Part shown: positions 28,900 through 46,863 of the stretch, one piece after another | Position numbering within the stretch: position 1 is the stretch's first letter | Layout: each line of letters begins with the position of its first letter | Virus record (IMG/VR): IMGVR_UViG_3300043436_001902 | Location: 1 to 47,413 of that record | Reading direction: 5' to 3' (one strand) | From: a virus | Length of the DNA: 47,413 nucleotides | Made by a program: the position numbers and the translations under genes | The notes under the pieces: generated by a model | Seen by the model: the letters and a program-made list of their open reading frames with translations, nothing else | Databases searched by the model: none | What the model was told of the DNA's origin: nothing

Positions 28900-29004
28900 T
28901 GTATTACATTTTGGTTTAACTTATGTGGCAATTTTTACCACTTATCTTAACTTGTCTTGTAAGGCACAAATTCACGTATAATTGTGACATTTATGACCAC
29001 TTAG

Positions 29005-29158
29005 GCACGGAGGCAGGACTCGAACCTGCATGGAGCTTATCCCTCGTATCTACTTCTGCTCAATAGGTATACAGCTGATAACCTATGACTTTTGCATTTT
29101 CGTCTACTAGCGTCTCCCCACAACTGAACAGTATCCAATTGCTTTCCGCCACTCCGTG
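29005..29158 (-). tRNA. tRNA-like element, class II-like, abnormally long (154 nt)
   Basis: On the - strand, a 7-bp acceptor stem CACGGAG / CTCCGTG encloses a perfect T-arm (GCAGG TTCGAGT CCTGC). After the 5' acceptor comes TGGCGGAA...TTGG...AGACGC, which reads like the D-arm of tRNA-Leu but with about 20 extra nt in the loop. The rest is longer than any normal anticodon plus variable arm. CCA is not encoded. The anticodon could not be assigned. It may be an interrupted tRNA or a tRNA-like structured RNA. Confidence 0.45.
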
Positions 29159-29249
29159 TTGCTCGCCTTTCCGAGACTGTCAACTATTTACTGCTTCTTT
29201 ATGGCTGCATAGCTACAAACCCTCATAAAACCCTCAGCAGTAAGGGTAG

Positions 29250-29374
29250 TAGTGAGGGTGAGATTCGAACTCACTCGGTAGGATTATCGCGAACTCCGTT
29301 TGAAGTACCTTATTCGGATGGTCTTATGCCGTAAGCTGCCTTCCTGTTTAACTGAACCAACAGTTTTCCTCACT
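29250..29374 (-). tRNA. tRNA-like element, abnormally long (125 nt)
   Basis: On the - strand, acceptor AGTGAGG / CCTCACT pairs perfectly over 7 bp, followed by A as a possible discriminator. The T-arm is canonical (GTGAG TTCGAAT CTCAC). A 5-bp D-arm-like stem CTGTT / AACAG follows the acceptor. The remaining 67 nt between D-arm and T-arm are too long for a standard anticodon and variable arm. The anticodon is unresolved and CCA not encoded. Same caveat as the neighbouring element. Confidence 0.45.
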
Positions 29375-29472
29375 ATGCCTTTTTTCTCGGAAAGGCTAAC
29401 CTATCTCCCTACGATGAGAACCGCAGCCAATGCACGGCAGGTTACGATCCACTCGTCAGTGGCATATTTCGT

Positions 29473-29733
29473 TTAGTTTTTAAATGCTTTAGCGATGCCC
29501 TTTACACCATACATCTGAGCAGTTTCTAAATGCTCCATTGCAATTATAAAGCATCTTTGTTGTTCACCCCATTCTTCATCTGTAAGGTTAGAATTATGAC
29601 CTGCTTCATTCAAAAAATCAATTGCGTCAGCCATCATGCGTTTGAAAATTGCAATCTTATCATCTGAAGATGGATTGAATCCAATATGACATCTCTTCTC
29701 TCCAAGTGTCATTTCTCTTTGTGGTGTTTCCAT
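29473..29733 (-). CDS. Acb2/Tad1-hairpin-like protein (candidate anti-CBASS sponge)
   Basis: An 86-aa protein. The N terminus MTLGEKRCHIGFNPSSDD (from residue 8) closely resembles the LGEKRVRT-x-FNPS signature of Acb2, and the C terminus (AMEHLETAQMYGVKGIAKA) follows the family's EYE-x-A-AMWAVKAAT pattern. Between them are two long helices. Acb2 is a small helical hexamer that binds cyclic di- and tri-nucleotide signals and so blocks CBASS (and, for related Tad1, Thoeris) immunity. The match here is by eye; function would be inferred from the family. It lies among early genes, a sensible place for a counter-defence gene. Confidence 0.65.
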   Translation of the reverse strand: METPQREMTLGEKRCHIGFNPSSDDKIAIFKRMMADAIDFLNEAGHNSNLTDEEWGEQQRCFIIAMEHLETAQMYGVKGIAKAFKN

Positions 29734-45294: not shown

Positions 45295-46863
45295 ATGGTA
45301 GTAAAACATGTTCATTTAGGCGACGAAGGTCGCAAAAAGCTCATTAAAGGCATCAAAACGATCGCTGGAGCAGTAAAAAGCACATTAGGTGCGCGAGGAC
45401 GCACTGTTCTCATTGAATCAGAGCATCATGTGGGTGGTATTACGGTCACAAAGGACGGTGTAACGGTCGCTAAGTCGATCAATCTATATGACCCGGTTGA
45501 GAACTTGGCTGTTATGATGGTCAGACAGGCTGCTGAGAAGACAGCAACCGTTGCAGGTGATGGTACCACGACAAGTGTTGTGTTGGCTGAGGCTATTGTT
45601 GATGCTGCTGAGGAGGTGCTCTCTCCGGAAGACAATGTCACTGAGGTAATCCGTGAGATTAATCAAATTACTGACAAGGTTGTCAGCAATCTAACCAAAC
45701 GCTCAAAGAAGTTATCCGGAAAGAAGCTCCGTGATGTGGCTTCAATCAGTGCAAACAATGACACTGAGATTGGTGGTATGATCGCTGACGCGTTCAGTGA
45801 GGTCAAGATGGTATCAGTTGAGAACAGTAAGGACCACAACACGTATGTTGAGGTGATAAAGGGGATCAAGGCTGACCGTGGTTGGACTAGTCGTCATTTT
45901 ATTACTGACTACAAGCGTCAAGAGGCTGTGCTGGACAACCCATACGTGTTGATCACTGACCAAGAGATCAGTAACTTGTTGAATATTGAGAAGGTGCTAC
46001 AGCACATTGTAGCACAGAACAAGCCATTACTTATCATCGGTGAGTTGAGCCCTGCTGCACTTAATACGCTGAATATCAACGTGGTTCAGGGCAAAATCAA
46101 GGCATGCAACATCCTGCCTCCAAACTTCGGGTACCGTCAGAAAGACTTACTAGAGGATCTAGCGATCGCTTTGGACGGCACATACTTCAGTGAGGACACT
46201 GGTGATGACTTGTCATTGATTGACGTAGCACATCTAGGCAGATGCGCCAAGGTAATCGTTGGTAAGGATAATACGATCTTTATGCCCTATGCTAGCTCTC
46301 AAGATAGCATAGACAATAGAATCACCGATATCACCGAGACAATCTTCGAGAGCGTAAGCAAAGAGGAGACTGACTTCCGTAAGGAGAGAGCTGCCAACCT
46401 ATCGGGTGGTGTGGCTGTCATCTATGTTGGTGCGTTAAGTGACATTGAGCAGAAGGAGAAGAAGGACCGCATTGACGACGCTGTGTGTGCTGTTGAGGCG
46501 GCCTTAGAGGAGGGTATTCTTCCTGGTGGTGGTGTAGCATTGTTCAACGAGGCAACAGAGCTTGGACGCAGCGAAATCACTCCTGCATTAAATATTATGA
46601 TCAAGGCTTTGAGAGCTCCAATGTGGCAGATCATCACAAACGCAGGTAAGGACGCATATAGTATCATGGATGGAATCATGCCAATACCTAACGAGGGCTA
46701 TGACGTGAAGGCTGAGCAGTATGTTGACATGATCAAGGCTGGTATTGTTGACCCAACGAAGGTGACAAAGAACGCTCTATTGAACGCTGTGTCGGTCGCT
46801 ACGACAATCTTAAGTACAAACGCTATCATTACAAATATCAGAGCAGATGAGAGTACTAAATAA
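45295..46863 (+). CDS. groEL: Phage GroEL-like chaperonin
   Basis: A 522-aa protein with the family landmarks: STLGARGRTVLIE near residue 29-41, KDGVTVAK (53-60), the nucleotide motif GDGTTT (88-93), a central apical-domain region and a C-terminal GILPGGGVALF (about 404-414). The usual C-terminal Gly/Met-rich tail is missing, ending RADESTK, which is seen in some phage chaperonins. Likely helps fold a large virion protein such as the capsid or the giant internal protein. The next gene encodes its co-chaperonin. Confidence 0.9.
   Translation: MVVKHVHLGDEGRKKLIKGIKTIAGAVKSTLGARGRTVLIESEHHVGGITVTKDGVTVAKSINLYDPVENLAVMMVRQAAEKTATVAGDGTTTSVVLAEAIVDAAEEVLSPEDNVTEVIREINQITDKVVSNLTKRSKKLSGKKLRDVASISANNDTEIGGMIADAFSEVKMVSVENSKDHNTYVEVIKGIKADRGWTSRHFITDYKRQEAVLDNPYVLITDQEISNLLNIEKVLQHIVAQNKPLLIIGELSPAALNTLNINVVQGKIKACNILPPNFGYRQKDLLEDLAIALDGTYFSEDTGDDLSLIDVAHLGRCAKVIVGKDNTIFMPYASSQDSIDNRITDITETIFESVSKEETDFRKERAANLSGGVAVIYVGALSDIEQKEKKDRIDDAVCAVEAALEEGILPGGGVALFNEATELGRSEITPALNIMIKALRAPMWQIITNAGKDAYSIMDGIMPIPNEGYDVKAEQYVDMIKAGIVDPTKVTKNALLNAVSVATTILSTNAIITNIRADESTK

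Follow-up and report, generated by a model that had tools for sequence, protein, structure and literature searches.

Putative tRNA-like RNAs lacking an anticodon arm in a phage genome and its relatives

Transfer-messenger RNA (tmRNA) combines a tRNA-like acceptor and T-arm with a pseudoknot and a replaced anticodon arm, and alanyl-tRNA synthetase (AlaRS) reads no anticodon. The tRNA-like structures of plant viruses are viral tRNA mimics that can be aminoacylated. Among phage RNAs, some tRNAs evade anticodon nucleases through altered anticodon loops and still decode, as reported (PMC10264068), and rnaC (species 1 RNA) of phage T4 is expressed late as a stable RNA of unknown function (PMC9697503, PMC3014915). 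Here, we analyse a 47.4-kb IMG/VR virus record (IMGVR_UViG_3300043436_001902; the window, meaning the whole 47,413-nt stretch), in which the minus-strand noncoding stretch 28900-29472 holds two oversized tRNA-like elements, W1 and W2. Judging from their sequences, it is very likely that both are tRNA shells devoid of an anticodon arm, in which a constrained alternative domain takes its place.

The first-pass annotation of the window described two minus-strand elements of 125 and 154 nt with perfect 7-bp acceptors and T-arms, and these do exist. W1 (29250..29374, 125 nt) has the acceptor AGTGAGG/CCTCACT, the T-arm GTGAG-TTCGAAT-CTCAC, and A73 followed by an encoded C; its D-side hairpin (AACTG-TTGGTT-CAGTT, 29365-29350, minus strand) is not of the Leu type. 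W2 (29005..29158, 154 nt) is tRNA-Leu-like, with the acceptor CACGGAG/CTCCGTG, the T-arm GCAGG-TTCGAGT-CCTGC, the core nucleotides U8, A14, A15 and U48, and C73 followed by an encoded C. The interruption reported in its Leu-type D-arm (TGGCGGAA...AGACGC) is also present: the D-loop holds 28 extra nucleotides (AGCAATTGGATACTGTTCAGTTGTGGGG, 29116..29143, minus strand, a predicted hairpin), and this is a discrete change, because the related loci L033, L157 and L415 have the plain TGGCGGAATTGGTAGACGC. An 80-nt interior (29030..29109, minus strand) replaces the anticodon and variable arms of W2, with a possible last helix GGA/TCC whose 3' end lies 2 nt from the T-stem. As first noticed, no anticodon arm closes in either element, and the arm test described below gives the same result class-wide. 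Set against canonical tRNAs, the 7-bp acceptor and the 5-bp T-arm with a TTCRANN loop are there and the anticodon arm with a 7-nt loop is missing. One early observation has to be given up, namely an extra segment (ACTGTT..TTCAGTT) shared by W1 and W2. It comes down to a single 8-mer, GTTCAGTT, which is at chance level (we estimate that about 0.3 shared 8-mers are expected between elements of these lengths), and the match in W2 falls inside the D-loop insert, which is missing from most relatives of W2.

With rules for the acceptor, the T-arm and positions 8-11, a shell scanner returned 23 hits from the window and related loci, nearly all of them shells or normal tRNAs, and 1 from shuffled sequence. 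Neither ARAGORN nor Rfam found W1 or W2: the Rfam gathering score was reached nowhere in the window, and a permissive threshold returned only weak unrelated hits in the W1/W2 region.

Relative loci (L numbers) were collected through the phage's primase and then searched with the W1/W2 region. W1 is identical along its length, end positions excepted, in L033, L002 and L441. The interior of W2 recurs in at least six other contigs, under the same acceptor CACGGAG in L033, L157, L384 and L415, under AGTCAGG and with A73 in L383, and in a diverged form in L447. L031, with the acceptor GGTCAGG, shares only the ends of this interior, which brings the acceptors of W2-interior shells to three. The D-loop insert of the window is common to L447 and absent from L033, L157, L384, L415 and L383, most W2 relatives having a plain tRNA-Leu D-arm. 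The first W2-family alignment, in which rows L384 and L415 are misplaced, does not enter the pairing claims. The L033 homolog of W2, which has no insert, scores 30.0 bits against the Rfam tRNA model (gathering score 29). Other oversized shells occur in the relatives, for example in L007, L015, L025, L029 and L031, and the Rfam tRNA cut-off is passed by shells of L007, L015 (twice), L025 and L033. The comparison with related phages that the first-pass annotation suggested thus finds W1 and W2 conserved, with a tRNA-type 3' flank (encoded C74) as in ordinary phage tRNAs. L015 (8831-8915), L427 (from ~3517) and L406 each hold a tRNA-like shell of class I, whose anticodon-loop region measures 20 nt and which has an additional small hairpin; this hairpin reads TGGT/ACCA in the first two and CGGT/GCCG in the third. 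Class I shells with anticodon-region inserts lie in L226 (2474-2584) and L239 (2526-2633), loci that also hold Leu-type shells.

The elements of the window have many counterparts. A class pattern consisting of a tRNA-Leu D-arm and a T-arm 54-84 nt further on (the normal gap is ~36 nt) matched at least 120 stretches in viral contigs, as did a scan for AGTCAGG shells only, and the acceptor was perfect in 65 of the first 81 class-pattern matches read. Across 84,980 genomes of bacteria and archaea, the same pattern matched 70 stretches, a part of which are duplicated or adjacent tRNAs; the true shells, many of which come from Bacteroidota isolates, are also found in Paenibacillus and in lactobacilli, and several have prophage genes as neighbours (terminase, portal, Erf, transposase). 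The shell loci L279, L284, L226 and L270 have Sphingobacterium, Flavobacterium or Paenibacillus strains as hosts. Viral contigs and prophages together contain at least 222 distinct interiors of tRNA-Leu-type shells, in 169 clusters; all these counts are lower bounds, and the patterns favour Leu D-arms. One shell family (L025, L026, L032, L034) has a Ser-type D-arm. In the five host genomes where it was found, the shell D-arm is that of the host tRNA-Leu, and the acceptors differ. Most shell loci (95 of 141) have no ordinary tRNA within 1.5 kb. In some phages, AGTCAGG starts form arrays of three to seven on a single strand; these phages also carry ordinary tRNAs, some including tRNA-Leu, and shells are therefore not simple replacements of missing tRNAs. 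Shells share the strand of their flanking genes in 127/150 and 125/150 cases, and some lie 28-48 nt 5' of a terminase gene. No protein family is constant beside them, the commonest, terminase, being near 12 of 208 loci. A search of named phages with an AGTCAGG shell returned tRNA-arm fragments only. We found no description of the class in the open-access literature (subscription papers and preprints are outside this coverage), and phage is absent from a review of non-canonical tRNAs.

Shell nucleotides that the pattern does not demand are strongly conserved among cluster representatives: U8 in 123/123, U48 in 115/123 and A73 in 93/123, the latter rising to 94/98 in AGTCAGG clusters. An encoded C74 follows 214 of 222 shells, compared with 314 of 335 ordinary phage tRNAs at the same loci, an agreement that speaks for a shared 3' maturation; a full CCA is seldom encoded. 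Variable sequence of 45-110 nt takes the place of the anticodon arm, and an intact anticodon arm with a 7-nt loop was found in 9 of 169 clusters, against 8.5 in shuffles. Inside the variable region, constraint is strongest on a last helix, the 3' strand of which stops 2 nt short of the T-stem (z -6.1 compared with dinucleotide shuffles). Given this last helix, a further helix is enriched both in interleaved (pseudoknot) position (z -4.0) and in nested position (z -4.2), and pseudoknots are predicted in many shell interiors. Subfamily A2 shows five double-changed pairs, of which four belong to the acceptor and one to the last helix of the interior, a total reached by 0 of 500 shuffles; A1 and A3 show one such pair each, in the last helix, which is not significant alone. 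On these comparative grounds, the shell is under selection and the interior is structured. The term tRNA mimics, used early on for W1 and W2, suits the whole phage RNA class, in which the shell is kept and decoding lost.

Relatives of the virion protein encoded in the window occur in phages of Flavobacterium, Cellulophaga and Maribacter. Along the minus strand, the transcript order is an Acb2-like open reading frame (ORF), a leader RNA, W1, a GAAAGG hairpin, W2 and a conserved hairpin. The ORF (29473-29733, 86 aa) resembles the Acb2/Tad1-hairpin proteins directed against CBASS (cyclic oligonucleotide-based antiphage signalling system; Pfam PF24729, E 8.5e-8) and lies directly upstream of the leader RNA, the noncoding stretch with W1 and W2 coming after. 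The structured leader RNA (29377..29465, ~90 nt, just 5' of W1) has no Rfam family, and its core TCTCATCGTAGGGAGATA is conserved in 78 stretches of viral contigs (L010, L011, L044, L387-L460). A terminator of its own, GCCTT..AAGGC-TTTTTT, closes the leader in most phages. In the window, and in relatives, a shell or a tRNA stands in place of the T-run: an ordinary tRNA in L403, L436, L444 and L456, another tRNA-like element elsewhere. The leader is present without shells in L010, L011 and L044. Two more structured upstream RNAs, unlike this leader, stand directly before shells in related phages (L007 9640-9780, L015 8510-8620, L031 16000-16140; L025 1830-2055, L029 650-855), and one of the two has an apparent pseudoknot, TAGCT/AGCTA.

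The GAAAGG hairpin (CTCG-GAAAGG-CGAG, 29162..29175, minus strand) lies a short distance 5' of W2. Hairpins of the form NNNNG-GAAAGA-CNNNN, with differing stems and pairing kept, are found 9-11 nt 5' of other shells (L103, L120, L123, L156, L160, L197, L239, L242, L317, L335), and GAAAGA-type hairpins also lie 3' of 14 shells. Positions 29396-29385 of the leader and 29176-29165 at the GAAAGG hairpin are perfectly complementary over 12 bp and enclose W1, which makes an alternative fold possible. The last hairpin (GTGGTAAAAATTGCCAC, 28925..28941, minus strand) lies 3' of W2; it occupies the same place in L002, L005, L010 and L033 and is near-identical in L007. The folding energy of the whole region is ordinary (z -1.2). 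Elsewhere, the window encodes a GroEL-like chaperonin on the plus strand (45295-46863; phrog_5725, PF00118).

We propose, with a probability of about 0.45, that W1 and W2 are tRNA scaffolds without an anticodon arm, which undergo maturation through the tRNA pathway of the host and serve as decoys or effectors towards one of its tRNA-binding factors. Since the code-reading arm is replaced by another fold, the shells probably do something other than translation. They would be transcribed together with the neighbouring phage genes, then cut out 5' and 3' by host enzymes of tRNA maturation and completed by CCA addition, and would thus accumulate as stable tRNA-like RNAs unable to decode. The shell would steer the RNA to tRNA-handling factors of the host, such as a synthetase, an enzyme of tRNA maturation or modification, or a defence or toxin protein that targets tRNA, and there the variable domain would turn it into a decoy or an effector. 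Such a role fits the variable domains, the arrays, the neighbourhood of Acb2, and the pressure that tRNA-targeting defence is reported to exert on phage tRNAs (PMC10264068). The RNA baits envisaged by the first-pass annotation are compatible with these results and are our preferred function, a role that we infer. More tentatively, phages of several bacterial groups may carry a large, so far undescribed class of tRNA-Leu-like RNAs without an anticodon arm, of which many could be charged with leucine; each would present its own structured domain, and they would act, singly or in arrays, as decoys or effectors directed at tRNA-binding proteins of the host.

Several points weigh against the decoy or effector role. 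It is drawn by analogy from the literature on phage tRNAs versus defence (PMC10264068). No conserved protein partner lies nearby to name a target, and the interiors are so variable that a single common target is hard to argue. W1 has no Leu-type D-arm, its homologs are near-identical only, and its fold is putative. Finally, the pseudoknot is a frequent prediction and no proven rule, because enrichment is equally strong for nested and for interleaved helices.

Among the other explanations, the one that fares best, while still unlikely, is that shells are aminoacylated adaptors: host leucyl-tRNA synthetase (LeuRS) would charge them, and they would serve outside translation as leucine donors or as substrates of LeuRS or EF-Tu, by analogy with tmRNA and alanine. 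Escherichia coli tRNA-Leu deprived of its anticodon and variable arms is still leucylated, so that LeuRS can charge without an anticodon arm (PMC9976931). The leucine identity elements, A73, A15-U48, G18G19 and A20a (PMC9976931), appear to be kept by most shells, and the family with a Ser-type D-arm can also be counted in favour of adaptors. Yet, A73 is missing in about a quarter of cluster representatives, and charging is not a general function, because W2 has C73 and W1 lacks the Leu D-arm. As C73 abolishes charging of the truncated E. coli tRNA-Leu (PMC9976931), W2 is probably not leucylated; most of its relatives might be.

Shells might instead be RNA punctuation, cis sites at which host tRNA nucleases cut long phage transcripts, with an interior that merely blocks decoding. 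The strand agreement with neighbouring genes, the position of some shells shortly 5' of a terminase gene and the C74 flank are what such sites would show. We regard this as rather improbable: it leaves unexplained the constrained interior helices, the presence of one interior under several acceptors and the arrays, and an ordinary tRNA would serve equally well.

Phages gain and lose tRNAs, and element content differs between relatives, which could point to decaying tRNA pseudogenes acquired by phages. Decay is very improbable for elements in which acceptor, T-arm, U8, U48 and C74 are near-perfect, replacement is confined to the anticodon region, helices are maintained by paired changes and, in the case of W1, three other contigs carry the same sequence, end positions excepted. 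Still less credit is due to intron-bearing tRNA genes whose insert would be spliced out to give a working tRNA, the sense in which the first-pass annotation spoke of tRNAs with unusual inserts. The anatomy is insert-like, the D-loop insert of W2 is a discrete change and, in our own reading, a single excision in L007 could yield a Leu UAA anticodon loop. Across the class, however, restorable arms are at chance level, both with a Leu anticodon (4 of 169; chance 1.8 +/- 1.4) and with any anticodon (9; chance 8.7). Insert lengths and positions vary freely, and no Rfam self-splicing intron family was hit at these loci. Least probable of all is a DNA-level packaging, integration or recombination site that resembles a tRNA by chance: integrases often use tRNA genes and a terminase family lies near 12 of 208 shell loci, but the paired changes and the conserved tertiary core are features of RNA, and the many genomic settings, with as many as seven acceptor starts per genome, do not suit the packaging signal once envisaged for W1 and W2.

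A few further readings were rejected. An antisense action of the interiors on their own locus finds no support, since complementary matches are no longer there than in shuffles (longest match 9.41, against 9.44). Self-dimerisation via palindromic loops, prompted by CAGCTG and CGGCCG in W2 relatives, is contradicted by a class-wide depletion of palindromes (109 against 173 +/- 14), the counts for W1 and W2 alone being not significant. Sequence matching a reverse-transcription primer site is rare, with 7 occurrences across all loci, and no conserved protein partner emerged among shell neighbours. No tmRNA gene was called by ARAGORN, either in the window or at 47 relative loci.

Shell genes have probably been overlooked in many phage genomes, because a standard tRNA finder is blind to them: ARAGORN called 0 shells at 141 loci. 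If the shells are processed and stable, phages have a natural means of presenting structured RNAs on a tRNA scaffold, and may have exploited the anticodon-independent charging by LeuRS. Shells also provide a comparative handle on the role of T4 rnaC, because many relatives sit in prophages of culturable bacteria.

How do these RNAs compare with the known systems? The tRNA-like structures of plant viruses sit at the ends of RNA genomes, whereas shells are separate genes of DNA phages with ordinary acceptors. Compared with tmRNA, shells are of Leu and not Ala type, retain a full D-arm and are about one third as long, and inspection of W2 and its relatives by eye revealed no tag ORF. The phage tRNAs that evade anticodon nucleases (PMC10264068) likely have in common with shells the selective setting of defence pressure, but shells are unable to decode. 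With class II tRNA-Leu, shells share the D-arm, U8, A14, A15-U48, the T-arm and usually A73; they differ from it by the missing anticodon arm, other acceptor stems and the replacement domain of 45-110 nt. The closest precedent is T4 rnaC, a 139-nt phage RNA in the T4 tRNA cluster (NC_000866, 70908-71046). Searching phages with the window region (blastn) gave short matches only, with rnaC absent among the matches listed; those listed for rnaC itself are T4-like phages. Like shells, rnaC has a tRNA T-arm, in which the stem varies between relatives with pairing kept (CCGGG/CCCGG, CCTGG/CCAGG, CCAGG/CCTGG), and an acceptor-like pairing of its ends (CGRUUCG/CGUUYCG). Unlike them, it lacks a Leu D-arm, its acceptor contains two U-U mismatches, and two predicted hairpins stand in place of a short domain; it is also one sequence family, where shells are a class with unrelated interiors. 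We do not class shells as members of rnaC, because rnaC lacks the Leu D-arm and has no interior in common with them. Yet, the rnaC relatives L468-L471 keep the tRNA-type T-arm and the acceptor-like pairing, with paired changes, and this comparison suggests that rnaC is itself a tRNA-like RNA.
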